From: Agrococcus sp. Marseille-Q4369
GTDB lineage: Bacteria; Actinomycetota; Actinomycetes; Actinomycetales; Microbacteriaceae
Reading direction: 5' to 3'
Length of the DNA: 64,000 bases
NCBI RefSeq assembly: GCF_018308945.1
Contig: NZ_CP070501.1
Location: 186,001-250,000, forward strand
Shown here: positions 7,334-39,207 of the stretch, piece by piece
Layout: each line of letters opens with the position of its first letter
Position numbering within the stretch: the stretch's first letter is position 1
Translations under genes and position numbers: made by a program
The notes under the pieces: generated by a model
What the model was told of the DNA's origin: nothing
Databases searched by the model: none
The model's input: only the letters and a program-made list of their open reading frames with translations

Positions 7334-9301
7334 GTGCGATACATCCTCGCGGCCGTGAGCCTCGTGATCTCGCTCGTGCTGCTCGGCCTCGGCATCGGGC
7401 AGCGCACGATCTGGGAGCCGCCGGAGACGATCGTCGCCCAGGTCCAGGAGCCCGCCGAGTCGCAGGTCGTCATCATCCCGGGTGAGGCGATGAACGCGCA
7501 CGACGGCGTGCAGACGCTCACCGTCGAGGGCGAGGGCCCTGTCACCGCGGTCGTCGGCCGCGCCCACGACGTCGCCGGCTGGATCGGCGAGAGCGCGCAC
7601 GCGATCGCGAGCGTCGACGAGACCGACGCGCTCGTGCTCGACGAGCAGCGCGGCGACGAGGAGCCCCTGCCCGAGATCGCCGGCAGCGACATGTGGATCG
7701 AGGAGGCGCAGGGCGAGGGATCGCTCGAGCTGACGATCGACCTGCCGATCGGCTACTCGGTCGCCATCACGGGCGCGCCCGGCGAGGCCGCCCCGGCGGC
7801 GATCGGCGTCGCGTGGCCGTTCGATGCGAAGACGCCGCTCTTCGGCCCGCTCATCACCGCCGGCCTCGTGTTCCTCGCGCTCGCGCTGCTGTTCCTGCTG
7901 CTCGCGCTGCGCCACCACCGTCGCCGCCGCGGCCCGCAGCGCCGCAGCCACCGCGAGCTCTCGCGCGCCGAGCGCCGCGCGCTGCGCCGCGAGGCGCAGG
8001 AGGGCCTGCCGCTGCCCGCGAAGCCGATCTCGCCCACGCCGCCCGCCGGCGAGCAGGGCGCGGTCGAAGCGGATGCGTCGACGCCGTCGAGCGCGGAGCC
8101 CGCGTCCGAGACGGCTCCGGCGTCGTCGGTCGAGCACGGTGCCGACGACGCCCCCGCCGCGGCGTCCGCGCCGGAGCCCGGGACGGCATCCGCCCCCGAC
8201 ACCCCCGAGCGCGAGTCGAGCACTCGCGAGCGGCGCGCGACGCGCTCGCGCCGCAGCCGATTCGGGCTCATCGCCCTGCCCGTCGTCGCGCTCGTCGGCC
8301 TCACCGGCTGCGGGCCCCAGTACTGGCCGAGCGGCGAGACGGAGGCGGCGCCGACCGACGCGCCCACGCCCTCGACGCTCGAGGAGACGCTGCCGCCGGT
8401 CGCGCTCACCGAGAACCAGTTCGACCGCGTGCTCGAGTCGACGCGCGAGACGGTCGCCGAGGCCGACGAGGCGCTGAACGCCGAGGTCGCCTCGAGCCGC
8501 CTCGCGGGGCCGATGCTCGAAGCCCGCACGACGAACTACCAGGTGCGCTCGCAGAACGCCGAGCTCGCGCCGGCGCCCGGGATCCCCGACGGCGAGGTCG
8601 AGCTGCTCCTCCCGCAGCAGACGGAGGTGTGGCCTCGCTCGGTCATGGCCGTCGTCGGGTGGGAGGACGGCGCGCAAGCCCAGTCGGCGCTCATGTTCCA
8701 GCAGCGCGACGCGCGCTCGAACTACCGGCTCGCCTACATGATGACGCTCGCCTCTGGCGTGCAGCTGCCGGCGGTGGCCAGCCCGACGATCGGCGCCGCG
8801 AGCCTGCCGGGCGACACCCCGCTGCTGCTGCACCGGCCGAACGAGATCACCGCCGCGTACGCCGACGTGATCCTGAACGGCGCCGAGTCGCAGTACAACT
8901 CGTGGTTCCGCGAGGAGGGGGATGCGCTGCGCGCCGAGATCGGGCGTCCCGCGAAGGACGCGATGCGCGCGCTGCCCGAGTTCGAGCTCTCGAACCTCGA
9001 GTGGAGCGTCGCCGAGGACGAGCAGGCGCCGATGCTGCTCGTCACGAACGAGGGCGGTGCGCTGCTCGCGACGTCGTTCCTCGAGACGCAGCGCACGACG
9101 CCGACGGAGAGCGGCGTCGAGATCGAGGCGCAGGCCGGCGCGGGCATCCTCGCCGGCGTCCAGCAGTCGGACACCGGGATCGAGACGACCTACCAGATCC
9201 AGGTGCTCTTCTCGGTGCCGCCGGCGGATGCGCCGGAGGGCACGCAGATCCAGGTCGTCGGCTACAGCCAGTCGCTCGTGAGCGCAAGGGAGGTCCAGTG
9301 A
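7334..9301 (+). CDS. Large membrane protein joined to a lipoprotein-like extracytoplasmic domain
   Basis: 655 residues, start GTG after GAAAGGA. Four parts can be read. Residues 1-22 are a membrane helix; 23-170 an extracytoplasmic domain; 171-192 a second helix followed by an Arg-rich stretch (RHHRRRRGPQRR). Residues 225-310 form a Pro/Ala/Glu-rich linker. Residues 308-326 look like a lipoprotein signal (GLIALPVVALVGLTGCG, Cys at 326) and about 330 residues of soluble domain follow. This looks like a fusion of a two-helix protein with a lipoprotein. The stop overlaps the YbbN start, so the two are coupled. I do not recognise the function; similar genes occur in Microbacteriaceae by my recollection. 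Confidence 0.8.
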   Translation: MRYILAAVSLVISLVLLGLGIGQRTIWEPPETIVAQVQEPAESQVVIIPGEAMNAHDGVQTLTVEGEGPVTAVVGRAHDVAGWIGESAHAIASVDETDALVLDEQRGDEEPLPEIAGSDMWIEEAQGEGSLELTIDLPIGYSVAITGAPGEAAPAAIGVAWPFDAKTPLFGPLITAGLVFLALALLFLLLALRHHRRRRGPQRRSHRELSRAERRALRREAQEGLPLPAKPISPTPPAGEQGAVEADASTPSSAEPASETAPASSVEHGADDAPAAASAPEPGTASAPDTPERESSTRERRATRSRRSRFGLIALPVVALVGLTGCGPQYWPSGETEAAPTDAPTPSTLEETLPPVALTENQFDRVLESTRETVAEADEALNAEVASSRLAGPMLEARTTNYQVRSQNAELAPAPGIPDGEVELLLPQQTEVWPRSVMAVVGWEDGAQAQSALMFQQRDARSNYRLAYMMTLASGVQLPAVASPTIGAASLPGDTPLLLHRPNEITAAYADVILNGAESQYNSWFREEGDALRAEIGRPAKDAMRALPEFELSNLEWSVAEDEQAPMLLVTNEGGALLATSFLETQRTTPTESGVEIEAQAGAGILAGVQQSDTGIETTYQIQVLFSVPPADAPEGTQIQVVGYSQSLVSAREVQ

Positions 9302-10239
9302 TGTCGGAGGCTCGACTGCCAGCGTCGATGGGGGGAGCGGTCGACCTGTCGGCCCTCGCCGCCCGCCACGAGCAGCCCGCGCCCGCGCCCGCAGGCGACG
9401 GCGCGCCCGGCGGCATGCCGAGCGCGATCATCGACGTCACCGACGCCGACTTCGCGCAGGTCGTCGAGCTCTCGAACCGCGTGCCGGTCATCATCGACAT
9501 CTGGGCCGAGTGGTGCGGGCCGTGCAAGCAGCTCTCGCCGGTGCTCGAGCGCCTCATCCAGGGCCACGGCGGCCGCCTCGTGCTCGCGAAGGTCGACGCC
9601 GACACGAACCCGCAGCTCGTGCAGGCGTTCAACGCGCAGTCGATCCCGACGGTCGCGGCTGTCATCGGGGGCCGCCCGGCGCCGCTCTTCACCGGCGCCC
9701 TGCCGGAAGAGCAGGTGAAGGACGTCCTCGAGCAGGTGCTCGCGTTCGCCGAGCAGCAGGGCATCACCGGTCGCGTGCCGGTCGGCGACGCCGACGAGGC
9801 GCCCGCCGAACCCGCGCCCGAGCCGGTGCCGCCGCTGCACCAGGAGGCGTACGACGCGCTCGAGAAGGGCGACCTGCCCGCAGCGATCGCGGCGTTCGAG
9901 AAGGCGATCGCGCAGAACCCGCGCGACGCCGACGCGATCGCCGGGCTCGCGCAGGTGCGGCTGCTCTCGCGTCTGCAGGGCAAGACGACCGACGAGGTGC
10001 GCGCTGCTGCGGCCGCGGCGCCGCGAGACATCGAGGCGCAGATGCTCGCGGCCGACCTCGACCTCTCGGGCGGGCACGTCGAGGATGCGTTCCTGCGGCT
10101 GCTCGAGCTCATGGCGACGCTCTCGGGGGACGAGAAGCAGGACGTGCGGCTGCGGCTGCTCGACCACTTCGAGATCGTCGGTCTCGAGGACCCGCGCGTG
10201 ATCGCGGCGCGCAAGCGCCTGACCGCGCTCCTCTACTAG
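9301..10239 (+). CDS. YbbN-type thioredoxin/TPR co-chaperone
   Basis: 312 residues. After a Pro/Ala-rich N-terminus, a thioredoxin fold spans about residues 42-150 with the active site WCGPC at 71-75, intact for thiol-disulfide exchange, and the cis-Pro in QSIPTV. The C-terminal 120 residues carry TPR-like repeats (YDALEKGDLPAAIAAFEKAIAQNPRDADA). The architecture matches CnoX/YbbN, which works with chaperones on oxidised or unfolded proteins; E. coli CnoX lacks the classic motif, whereas this one keeps it. The start ATG overlaps the preceding TGA. Confidence 0.9.
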   Translation: MSEARLPASMGGAVDLSALAARHEQPAPAPAGDGAPGGMPSAIIDVTDADFAQVVELSNRVPVIIDIWAEWCGPCKQLSPVLERLIQGHGGRLVLAKVDADTNPQLVQAFNAQSIPTVAAVIGGRPAPLFTGALPEEQVKDVLEQVLAFAEQQGITGRVPVGDADEAPAEPAPEPVPPLHQEAYDALEKGDLPAAIAAFEKAIAQNPRDADAIAGLAQVRLLSRLQGKTTDEVRAAAAAAPRDIEAQMLAADLDLSGGHVEDAFLRLLELMATLSGDEKQDVRLRLLDHFEIVGLEDPRVIAARKRLTALLY

Positions 10240-10273
10240 CCCCGCCGGCGCTCCGCCCGCAGCGGCGGCGCCG

Positions 10274-10704
10274 AGTGGCGCCTCCGGCGGGTGAGGGGCG
10301 CCTGCGGCAGGTGAGCGGTCACCTCGGCGTCCGAACGGTCAGGTCAGCGTACGAACGGTCAGTTCCGCGTGTGAACGGTCAGTCCGGGATGTGAGCGGTC
10401 AGTCGCGCTTGTGAGCGGTCAGTTCGGGGAGTGAGGTGTCGGTCTCGGATGCGTCCGGCCGCTTGAGTGAGTTGGCACTGCTCACGCGTGGCCGTGACCG
10501 CTCGCGTGCTGGAGTGACCGCTCGCGCGCGGAAGTGACCGCTCGCGCGCGGAACTGACCGCTCGCGTGCGGAAGTGACCGCTCGCGCGCGGAAGTGACCG
10601 CTCGCGCGCGGAAGTGACCGCTCGGGAGCGGGAGGCGCCACGCGGGTGCGGGAGGCGCCACTCAGGTGCGGGAGGCGCCACTCAGGTGCGGGAGGCGCCA
10701 CTCA
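10274..10704. repeat. Inverted arrays of 20-bp units between convergent genes
   Basis: The 460-base gap between the YbbN gene and glgB holds no gene. From 10291 to about 10430 a unit of the form GTGARCGGTCA plus nine variable bases recurs every 20 bases. From about 10494 to 10633 the reverse-complement unit (TGACCGCTCGC plus GCGGAAG) recurs about seven times in the same 20-base register. Outside these, AGTGGCGCCTCC at 10274 on the left is mirrored by four copies of GGAGGCGCCACT, also 20 bases apart, at 10631-10702 on the right; the last one reaches the glgB stop codon. The whole is a 430-base imperfect palindrome around a 60-base centre. It could act as a bidirectional terminator, a structured RNA or a protein-binding array; the sequence alone does not decide. 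Confidence 0.95.
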
Positions 10705-12906
10705 CTTCGCGGGCGGGGCGGTCGCCTCGCTCGCGATCGCGGCTGCCGGAGCGGGGGAGGGCGCCGCCTTCGGCTTCAGGAGCAGGCCCGCGAGCGGCGG
10801 GATCGTGATCGTCGCCGACGCGGGTCGGCCGCCCCACGGCTCGTCGGTCGCGTGGACGGTGCCGAGGTTGCCGACGCCGGAGCCGCCGAACTCGACGGCG
10901 TCGGAGTTCACGACCTCCTCCCACTCGCCCGCGAACGGCAGCCCCATCCGGTAGCCCTCGATCGGGCGCCCGGAGAAGTTGACGATCGCCGCGACCGGGT
11001 CGCGATCGGCGCCCCAGCGCAGGAACGCCACGACGTTGTCGGAGGAGTTGCCCCCGTCGATCCACTCGAATCCGCCCGGCTCGTTGTCGCGCAGCCAGAG
11101 CGCCTCGGTCTCGCGGTAGACGCGGTTGAGCTGGCCGACGAGCGACATGAGGCCGCGGTGCACCGGCTGGTCGAGGATCCACCAGTCGAGGCCGCGCGCC
11201 TCGCTCCACTCGCTCGGCTGCCCGAACTCCTGCCCCATGAACAGCAGCTGCTTGCCCGGGTGCGCCCACATGAACGTCAGGTAGGCGCGCACCGAGGCGA
11301 GCTTCTGCCACTGGTCGCCGGGCATCTTGTTCAGCAGCGAGCCCTTGCCGTGCACGACCTCGTCGTGGCTGATCGGCAGCACGAACTGCTCCGAGAACGC
11401 GTAGAGGAACGAGAACGTGATGTCGCCGTGGTGGTGCGAGCGGTACATCGGATCGACCGCCATGTACTGGAGCGTGTCGTGCATCCAGCCCATGTTCCAC
11501 TTGAGCCCGAAGCCGAGCCCGTCGACGTCCGTCGGCTTCGTGACGCCCGGCCACGAGGTTGACTCCTCGGCGATCATGACGATGCCGGGGCACCGGCGGT
11601 ACACCGTCGCGTTGACCTCCTGCAGGAGCGAGATCGCCTCGAGGTGCTCGCGCCCGCCGTGCACGTTCGGCAGCCACTCGCCGTCGTTGCGCGAGTAGTC
11701 GAGGTAGAGCATCGAGGCGACCGCGTCGACGCGCAGGCCGTCGATGTGGAACTCCTCCATCCAGTAGACGGCGTTCGCGACGAGGAAGTTCTTCACCTCC
11801 GGCCGTCCGAAGTCGAACACGTGCGTGCCCCAGTCGGGCTGGTCGCCGCGGCGCGGGTCGGGGTGCTCGTAGAGCGGCCGGCCGTCGAAGCGCGCGAGCG
11901 CCCACTCGTCCTTCGGGAAGTGGCCGGGCACCCAGTCCATGATCACGCCGTAGCCGGCGCGGTGCAGCCGATCGATGAGGTAGCGCAGGTCGTCCGGGTG
12001 GCCGAATCGGCTCGTGGGCGCGTAGTAGCCGGTGACCTGGTAGCCCCACGAGCCGCCGAAGGGGTGCTCGGCGAGCGGCATGAACTCGACGTGCGTGAAG
12101 CCCGTCACCTCGAGGTGCTCGATGAGCGCATCGGCCATCTCGCGGTAGTCGAGGCCCGGCCGCCACGAGCCGAAGTGCAGCTCGTAGACCGACATGGGGG
12201 TGTTGTGGGGGTCCCTCGCGGCCCGGGACCGCATCCACTCGTCATCGCTCCACGCGAAGCGGCTCGAGCCGATCTTCGACGCGGTCGCGGGCGGCACCTC
12301 GGTGTAGCGCGCCATCGGGTCGGCGCGCGTCACCCAGCCGTGGTCGGTGAGGATCTCGTACTTGTAGGCGGCGTGCTCGAGCTCGCCCGGCACGAACAGC
12401 TCCCAGACGCCGCTCGCGCCCATCGAGCGCATCGCGTGGCCGCGCCCGACCCAGTCGTTGAAGTCGCCGATGATGCGAACCGCGTGCGCGTTCGGCGCCC
12501 ATACGGCGAACGTCGCACCCCGCACGCCCTCGTGCTCGCGCAGCCGCGAGCCGAGCACCTTCCACGCCTGCTCGTGGCGGCCCTCGCGCCACAGGTGCAG
12601 GTCGAGCTCGCCGAGCGTCGGCGTGAAGCGGTACGGGTCCTCCGCCTCCCACGATCCGCCGTCGCCGTACGTCGTGCGCAGGCGATAGGGGCGGATGGGG
12701 CCGCTCACCGTGGCCTCCCACACCCCGTGCCCGAGGTGCTCCATGGGCGTATCGGCCTCACCCACGACCGCGACGCCGTCGGCGAGGTGCCGCACGGTCC
12801 GCACGAGGTGCGTGGCGCTGTCGATCGGGTGCGCGCCCAGCAGGTCGTGGGGCAGCGGATGCGCGCCCTCGGCGAGCCGGCGGAGGGTTGCGTCGTCGAG
12901 CATCAT
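10702..12906 (-). CDS. glgB: 1,4-alpha-glucan branching enzyme
   Basis: Cuts alpha-1,4 chains and re-attaches them through alpha-1,6 bonds in glycogen-type glucan. 734 residues, full length: an N-terminal glycogen-branching module, a CBM48 domain (FAVWAPNAHAVRIIGDFNDW), and a GH13 barrel with the nucleophile region DGLRVDAVASMLYLDYSR, acid in IAEES, and the downstream SHDEVVHGKGSL. The start ATG overlaps the glgE stop as ATGA, and GGAGG lies just upstream, so it is the second gene of a glgE-glgB operon. A short Ala/Pro tail extends to the end of the inverted array. Confidence 0.97.
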   Translation of the reverse strand: MMLDDATLRRLAEGAHPLPHDLLGAHPIDSATHLVRTVRHLADGVAVVGEADTPMEHLGHGVWEATVSGPIRPYRLRTTYGDGGSWEAEDPYRFTPTLGELDLHLWREGRHEQAWKVLGSRLREHEGVRGATFAVWAPNAHAVRIIGDFNDWVGRGHAMRSMGASGVWELFVPGELEHAAYKYEILTDHGWVTRADPMARYTEVPPATASKIGSSRFAWSDDEWMRSRAARDPHNTPMSVYELHFGSWRPGLDYREMADALIEHLEVTGFTHVEFMPLAEHPFGGSWGYQVTGYYAPTSRFGHPDDLRYLIDRLHRAGYGVIMDWVPGHFPKDEWALARFDGRPLYEHPDPRRGDQPDWGTHVFDFGRPEVKNFLVANAVYWMEEFHIDGLRVDAVASMLYLDYSRNDGEWLPNVHGGREHLEAISLLQEVNATVYRRCPGIVMIAEESTSWPGVTKPTDVDGLGFGLKWNMGWMHDTLQYMAVDPMYRSHHHGDITFSFLYAFSEQFVLPISHDEVVHGKGSLLNKMPGDQWQKLASVRAYLTFMWAHPGKQLLFMGQEFGQPSEWSEARGLDWWILDQPVHRGLMSLVGQLNRVYRETEALWLRDNEPGGFEWIDGGNSSDNVVAFLRWGADRDPVAAIVNFSGRPIEGYRMGLPFAGEWEEVVNSDAVEFGGSGVGNLGTVHATDEPWGGRPASATITIPPLAGLLLKPKAAPSPAPAAAIASEATAPPAK

Positions 12907-39070: not shown

Positions 39071-39207
39071 TAGACTGGCTGGCGACACGGGAGTCCGGTG
39101 CGCCGGGCTGAGAGGAAGGCTGAAGCCTTCGACCGTCAAACCTGATCTGGATCATGCCAGCGCAGGGAGGACACGCACCCGTGCCATTCCACCGAGAAGG
39201 GCACTTC
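39071..39207 (+). promoter_or_regulatory. TPP riboswitch (THI element) with promoter and RBS-sequestering hairpin
   Basis: TAGACT at 39071-39076 is the likely -10. The aptamer runs from about 39083 to 39172: CTGAGAGG at 39108-39115, the variable P3 hairpin GAAGGC/GAAGCCTTC, ACCGTCAAACCTGATCTGG (39132-39150) and ATCATGCCAGCGCAGGGAGG, all textbook THI-box parts. After it, GTGCC at 39181-39185 can pair with GGCAC at 39200-39204, which includes the end of the GAGAAGGG ribosome site, suggesting control of translation initiation. Thiamine pyrophosphate would then shut the downstream transporter. Confidence 0.95.

Follow-up and report, generated by a model that had tools for sequence, protein, structure and literature searches.

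What is the long run of inverted 20-bp units that separates ybbN from glgB in Agrococcus sp. Marseille-Q4369, and how did it come to lie there? The window analysed here is a stretch of 64,000 nucleotides, G000:C1:186001-250000, from the 2.74-Mb chromosome of this strain (G000, its own genome). Direct reading and two repeat finders agree that window positions 10273-10703 hold 9 units of 20 bp on the left and 11 inverted units on the right, laid out as follows.

9280..10239, plus strand: ybbN-like gene, the stretch used as query; its stop codon ends at 10239 and its start is approximate.
10273..10312, plus strand: outer left arm, two B-type 20-bp units (GAGTGGCGCCTCC.., GAGGGGCGCCTGC..).
10313..10452, plus strand: inner left arm, seven A-type 20-bp units (GAnCGGTCA..), the last one degenerate.
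10453..10483, no strand: centre, 31 bp between the arms.
10484..10623, minus strand: inner right arm, seven inverted A-type units (GAGCGGTCACTTCCGCGCGC read on the minus strand; GAGCGGTCA-type).
10624..10703, minus strand: outer right arm, four inverted B-type units (GAGTGGCGCCTCCCGCACCT read on the minus strand; GGCGCCTCC-type).
10702..12902, minus strand: glgB, a name taken from an earlier note on this DNA; its right limit is that of the neighbouring reading frame only.

The two genes converge on the array, which begins 33 bases past the ybbN stop and whose outermost right-hand B unit overlaps the glgB stop codon (10702-10704, minus strand). The earlier note, made from the letters alone, had described this placement between two 3' ends, the last unit at the glgB stop, the 20-bp step and the nesting of one inverted motif within another. 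These descriptions stand: the step holds in both arms, and the nesting amounts to two B and seven A units on the left, seven A and four B on the right. Its 430-base palindrome holds as a pair of inverted arms but is imperfect: the repeat finder returns arms of 168 nt that are 70% complementary and lie 55 nt apart. The B-type (GGCGCC-type) units comprise one exact and one variant copy on the left and 3 exact and 1 variant on the right. A and B units share a register and most of their letters, differing mainly in TCA versus CGC, which we take to make them two versions of a single unit. The core of that unit, GAnYGG(TCA/CGC/CCA), differs from lineage to lineage. It is near-palindromic (TGANCGGTCA), and the step equals two helix turns, which, as the earlier note proposed, would put a bound protein on one face of the DNA. 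Selection for GA at positions 1-2 and TCA at 7-9 gave 98 in-register A units from nine loci of this genome; 95-97 of them retain CGG at positions 4-6, 91 retain C13 and 90 retain G15, and position 3 varies freely (72 G, 15 C, 11 A). The centre showed no similarity to the centres of the three other loci of this genome long enough for comparison (best score 7).

As the earlier note supposed, the array is no named element, at least by Rfam, whose matches in the window are two tRNAs and a TPP riboswitch, none of them at the array. The riboswitch (39077-39186, plus strand) is itself barely above the Rfam threshold, at 56 versus 54.3 bits. A CRISPR array can be set aside, as the units are contiguous at their 20-bp step and have no unique spacers between them.

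The earlier note had also reasoned that an array found only here would be a random local expansion. This is not what the genome contains. A paired-unit pattern allowing up to 2 mismatches matched this genome 52+48 times and its reversed form 0+0 times, and the matches resolve into 13 loci: one at a nuclease gene, discussed below, and 12 solo arrays that enclose no gene, the window array included, at about the following chromosome positions.

171.8, 196.3 (window array), 262.5, 412.0, 655.2 and 729.6 kb: solo arrays.
766.7, 901.4, 978.3, 1526.7, 2261.7 and 2588.4 kb: solo arrays, continued.

Two inward-facing arms are present at 10 of the 12, and one arm at 262.5 and 901.4 kb. The family extends across the genus: the A pattern matches 15/24 Agrococcus genomes, the B pattern 13/24 and a GGCCA variant 8/24, counts that include some genomes with single matches and come from patterns searched at different stringency, with 0 to 4 matches per genome and pattern for the reversed controls. 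When the core motif was searched across the family, the strict A-type pattern matched 2 of 299 genomes, both of them Agrococcus.

Comparison of units suggests how the arrays lengthen. Adjacent units of an arm are more alike (0.805) than non-adjacent ones (0.716), and the arms of one locus are as different from each other as arms of separate loci (0.62 in both comparisons), with no matching change between the two arms of a locus visible at this level; thus the arms appear to grow independently by tandem duplication. B units lie outside A units in the window array, in A. lahaulensis and at the 766.7- and 2588.4-kb loci, and they tend to do so as if younger units arose in the middle. This order is no rule: the ybbN-glgB array of A. 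pavilionensis ends on its right side in one A unit, and the arrays in the aroB slot of G010 and G011 have an A-like unit at the outer edge. One very long array, at G003:C1:1554940-1555492 and beyond, consists of near-identical GACTGGCGGCTCCCGTCGCT units with at least 27 successive pair matches.

Arrays come and go at one slot among sister species. The closest ybbN relatives, at 93-94%, are those of A. lahaulensis and A. pavilionensis, and reading of their ybbN-glgB slots gave arrays that differ from ours in length and in units. Other Agrococcus records have short spacers in this slot, some with other palindromes, and three records, two of them from one metagenome-assembled genome, have short GGCGCC palindromes. 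The single palindromes in L044, L045 and L095 take the form GGCGCCTCC..GGAGGCGCC and are possibly an unexpanded form of the B unit. The dnaE-hisD slot carries arrays in 6/24 genomes, A-type in G000, B-type in G010, G011, G013 and G020 and mixed in G023, the G020 spacer being partly masked. The aroB-aroQ slot does so in another 6/24, A-type in G000, G009 and G017 and B-type in G010, G011 and G016, a count from which a further aroB match, in G005, was left out as spurious; in several relatives the next gene begins less than 90 bases past aroB. One spacer, in G012, was unreadable.

The main fact beyond the reach of the earlier note is that the family also brackets a nuclease gene at another place in this genome. 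A single gene at 448.75-450.02 kb has a B array on its left and an inverted B array on its right.

448995-449885 of the chromosome (G000:C1:448995-449885; L031:2996-3886): nuclease gene; its neighbours are an ANTAR response regulator and, next to polA, a thioesterase.

The protein ends in a C-terminal DUF559 domain, and its match to MTES_1575 falls below that family's cut-off. Both families were matched by 14/14 scanned members of the nuclease family, and no transposase family is among the five families listed for these members at E 0.1. A PADLOC match to AbiEi covers residues 10-128 (8e-5). A PDB search with the single protein returned nothing useful; profile matches point to a weak homology to solved nucleases, namely to 3hrl, described as endonuclease-like, at 1e-4 and to the mobile intron protein 3r3p (I-Bth0305I) at 0.014. 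Viral relatives are distant, partial matches. In a 74-row alignment, into which at least five genes entered twice, residues S207, E210, R214, H259 and D268 (numbered by the reading frame of the locus) are conserved at 1.0, and D242, E253 and Y254 at 0.97-0.99. The conserved residues form an E-D-x-H-D pattern, which would correspond to the residues that give the EDxHD family its name. EDxHD is a family of homing endonucleases (PMC3943268), and the DUF559 protein VsrA of Caulobacter is a Vsr-like endonuclease of the PD-(D/E)XK superfamily that was reported as the cause of an SOS response (PMC12907096). In Pfam, DUF559 is a domain of unknown function.

How closely are nuclease and repeat associated within Agrococcus? 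The nuclease lies between the ANTAR regulator and the thioesterase in 18/24 genomes, and in G010 it has one of these neighbours and the contig ends there. Even members of only about 45% identity occupy this slot in the genus. Among the homologs fetched, none had these neighbours in G005, G006, G012, G019 and G022, three of which (G012, G019 and G022) are less than 90% complete. Step-20 arrays face inward on both sides of the gene in 14/14 genomes whose nuclease ortholog is at least 70% identical, a result to be read with the fact that the array detector also reports scattered 3-unit chains at unrelated loci, so that short chains alone mean little. Summed over the three core patterns, the 19 nuclease-slot genomes have 4-174 matches versus 0, 0, 0, 2 and 1 in the other five, with the arrays at the nuclease itself included in these sums.

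The association extends to the type of unit. With type labels assigned by hand from the pattern-search and flank results, the type that flanks the nuclease is also the commonest type of the genome in 13/16 genomes (shuffled mean 6.3, p 0.00065). In one of these, G015, all 14 flank-type matches are at the nuclease, and no array of its own type is seen elsewhere; the agreement is 12/16 (p 0.005) without the G015 nuclease matches and 12/15 (p 0.0015) with G015 dropped. Flank and commonest dispersed type differ in G010, in G017 and in our own strain, where B units flank the nuclease and mostly A units occur elsewhere. In the nuclease tree, the GGCCA-flanked close orthologs of G001 and G015 form a supported clade, as do the A-flanked ones of G009 and G017, and the distant clade of G007 and G008 has a GGCCA-like core as well. 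Seven other places in the G007 genome carry slightly altered versions of the units found at its nuclease (GATTGGCCACTTCCTGCGGT).

When the left flank of each nuclease gene in the genus was aligned with the reverse complement of the right, 40/49 rows (35/44 distinct loci) reached at least 20 and 9/49 scored below, a tally in which L122 (wrong flank coordinates at a contig end) and L139 (half a gene) count as failures, although arrays flank both. Mismatched flank pairs scored at most 16.5 in 44/49; the five above 20 are explained by draws that can pair two loci from a single repeat family. At G004:C1:216615-217495 (L139, L149, L151) the syntenic nuclease is split into two reading frames, yet A-type arrays are abundant in this genome. 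Paralogous nuclease genes (L172, L175, L181, L144, L185 and L189) have flanking repeats of their own, with other periods (40, 32, 31 and 41 bp) or as single long palindromes. Exact or near copies of CGACACGCCG stand beside the nuclease genes L140, L147, L183, L190, L215 and L218; as a nuclease-linked motif this sequence was rejected, being found at 24/77 loci versus 26/69 control flanks.

Beyond the genus, relatives of the nuclease occur in 90/120 sampled Microbacteriaceae genomes, often several in each, and in 49/149 genomes of a phylum sample. In other genera, 12/28 nuclease loci have an inverted flank score of at least 22 and 16/28 lie below it; controls peaked at 15 (69 ybbN flanks) and 18.5 (138 random windows). 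At the phylum level, where 28 of 29 loci were scored and one was left out for its short flank, 8/28 score above 18.5, the highest value among 82 inverted controls; 17/28 reach 19 when direct matches are counted as well, a figure to be set beside controls that, here and outside the genus, cover inverted matches only. In G127, from another genus, a nuclease has on either side hairpins that belong to the CGAGATCGCACTT family, with one mismatch allowed, and this family is dispersed in the genome as well. Hairpins of the CGAGATCGCACTTCGGCGG type recur around the genomes of G127 and G054, often as two arms 44 bp apart, and the one nuclease locus read in G054 has the hairpin motif on one side only. 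A wider motif read from nuclease flanks, CGARNKNSCACTT, is above control in 5/25 nuclease-positive and 0/17 negative genomes (190 matches versus 29 in G068 and 52 versus 30 in G146; also G090, G065 and G127). Single palindromes may thus represent the usual state, from which the 20-bp arrays seen in Agrococcus would have expanded.

From these results we judge it probable that the array between ybbN and glgB is a gene-less copy belonging to a system that resembles REP/RAYT, in which an unrelated nuclease would recognise the unit and drive its spread. Two inverted arms of tandem 20-bp units surround a short centre or, at the nuclease locus, the nuclease gene. The AbiEi-like N-terminal part of the protein would bind the unit, or the hairpin formed by the inverted arms, and the DUF559 (EDxHD/Vsr-like) domain would nick or cut it. 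Repair or replication past the cut could then place copies at new sites, and the same process could lengthen the arms through tandem duplication. Copies would be tolerated directly 3' of stop codons, chiefly between convergent genes, where a bidirectional hairpin should do little harm and might even replace a terminator.

REP/BIME/REPIN sequences with TnpA-REP (RAYT) are among the closest known systems. REP sequences prefer the 3' ends of genes, and both systems have a gene with its repeats, gene-less copies and many extragenic sites, the Agrococcus arrays lying near stop codons in 28/30 cases. In PMC8266576, REP sequences are described as dispersed palindromic repeats thought to be non-autonomous, with a domesticated, housekeeping-like gene that has its cognate repeats nearby and with separate repeat classes for separate enzymes. 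A vertically kept gene beside cognate repeats is what we find here (slot in 18/24, flanks in 14/14, type in 12-13 of 16). However, the RAYT enzyme is a HuH transposase, whereas the Agrococcus enzyme is DUF559/EDxHD-like with an AbiEi-like N-terminus; the GTAG tetranucleotide, a feature of REP, is absent from the Agrococcus unit consensus sequences as read by eye; and the Agrococcus repeat, unlike REP, consists of 20-bp units in tandem, arranged as two inverted arms. With an enzyme of another superfamily and no GTAG, the system would work like REP/RAYT but stand outside it.

Other known systems share single features. EDxHD homing endonucleases such as 3r3p, the weak profile match at 0.014, have conserved E, D, H and D residues to which those of the Agrococcus protein would correspond, but they sit in an intron, an intein or their target, whereas the Agrococcus nuclease occupies a fixed intergenic slot and its flanking repeats also occur alone. 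The AbiE type IV toxin-antitoxin system shares the AbiEi match at residues 10-128 (8e-5), but the Agrococcus gene carries a nuclease domain and adjoins the ANTAR regulator and the thioesterase instead of an AbiEii gene. Vsr-like endonucleases such as Caulobacter VsrA share the DUF559 domain, and the accessible part of PMC12907096 uses the words 'palindromic' and 'repeats' 0 times and mentions no link to repeats. MITEs and their parent transposons likewise have the same inverted arms around a gene or a short centre, but the Agrococcus arms are tandem arrays of varying length and the enclosed gene is no known transposase.

It is tempting to see the arrays simply as elements that terminate transcription in both directions or stabilise 3' ends, lengthened by tandem duplication and linked to the nuclease only incidentally. 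Their placement is one argument for this account. We compiled 30 solo arrays from five genomes, 12 from G000 and the others among the matches listed for G003, G004, G009 and G010, with genes called by a simple codon-model caller trained on the window. Of these, 20/30 lie between convergent genes, 9/30 between co-directional and 1/30 between divergent ones, versus 6/31 convergent among window gaps longer than 30 bp (Fisher p 2.6e-4), and in 28/30 the distance from the array to a predicted stop codon is at most 60 bp. Pfam-checked examples from the strain's own genome are, for convergent genes, cyclase/ribosomal protein S20, PPK2/chorismate-binding enzyme and ParA-like/MerR; for co-directional genes, aroB-aroQ and dnaE-hisD; and for divergent genes, a weak DoxX match/serA. 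In a genus outside Agrococcus with dispersed hairpins, 10 places comprise 5 convergent and 5 co-directional ones. Folding argues in the same direction: the array RNA reaches -317 and -277.6 kcal/mol on the two strands (z -10.0 and -12.0), each better than 100/100 dinucleotide shuffles, which bears out the long stem that the earlier note had predicted on either strand.

That note had gone on to propose a double terminator for the two genes. Short hairpin-like palindromes were read in the ybbN-glgB slot of several relatives, which keeps this role possible; against it, the array has no U-tract and is, as a family, co-directional in 9/30 cases and divergent in one. A classical intrinsic terminator can be rejected, since the G+C-rich hairpin is present but no T-run terminator-like site was found at 10150-10800. 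Bidirectional intrinsic terminators are, like the array, hairpin-forming inverted repeats between convergent genes, but the array differs in its missing U-tract, its length of hundreds of bases and its genome-wide unit family. Furthermore, arrays occupy the aroB-aroQ and dnaE-hisD gaps, where several relatives have a plain short spacer, and termination explains neither why arrays face inward from either side of the nuclease in all 14 genomes nor why the unit types usually match. As a full account of the arrays we consider termination or stabilisation rather unlikely, although it can be a secondary effect alongside the nuclease system.

The units might instead be operator or docking sites for the AbiEi-like part of the protein, used in self-regulation, in the control of other genes or in chromosome folding, while the nuclease serves some other end such as defence. 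Such binding would suit the AbiEi match at residues 10-128 and the near-palindromic core TGANCGGTCA repeated at two helix turns. Operators would hardly be expected at 3' ends, with just 1/30 arrays between divergent genes, nor on both sides of the gene they regulate, and the occupancy of slots differs among sister species; we regard this explanation as improbable.

Less probable still is that the nuclease is a selfish, homing-type gene that inserted into pre-existing repeats, which were themselves spread by an unseen transposase or by replication slippage. The position of the gene at the centre of an inverted array pair and the weak match to 3r3p, which comes from a mobile intron, would fit such an origin, but the gene keeps one slot genus-wide down to about 45% identity, and repeat type mostly tracks nuclease lineage. 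The five genomes in which no gene was found in the slot have at most 2 pattern matches and so are not rich in dispersed arrays. Finally, a random local expansion of no function, to which the likeness of adjacent units (0.805 versus 0.716) and the arm divergence equal to that between loci (0.62) would be congenial, has next to no chance as a full account, refuted as it is by one family at 13 loci in this genome and in many relatives, and by the placement bias.

How far can the nuclease-driven reading be generalized? We lean, by very little, toward a second nuclease-repeat partnership in the Actinomycetota, independent of REP/RAYT: a widespread family of AbiEi-DUF559 (EDxHD-like) proteins, several per genome, each of which would maintain and spread its own palindrome, with the Agrococcus lineage having turned its palindrome into inverted 20-bp arrays that may act as bidirectional transcript ends. 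The logic is that of REP/RAYT, but the enzyme comes from a different superfamily and two of the features that define REP/RAYT are missing. Among the titles and abstract openings of the open-licence literature, we found no paper that links DUF559 or Vsr-like nucleases with REP-like repeats. If each such protein keeps a cognate repeat, an orphan protein family would gain a directly testable substrate, and a class of intergenic palindromes in high-G+C bacteria an owner. The life style of REP/RAYT would then have arisen twice, with unrelated enzymes.
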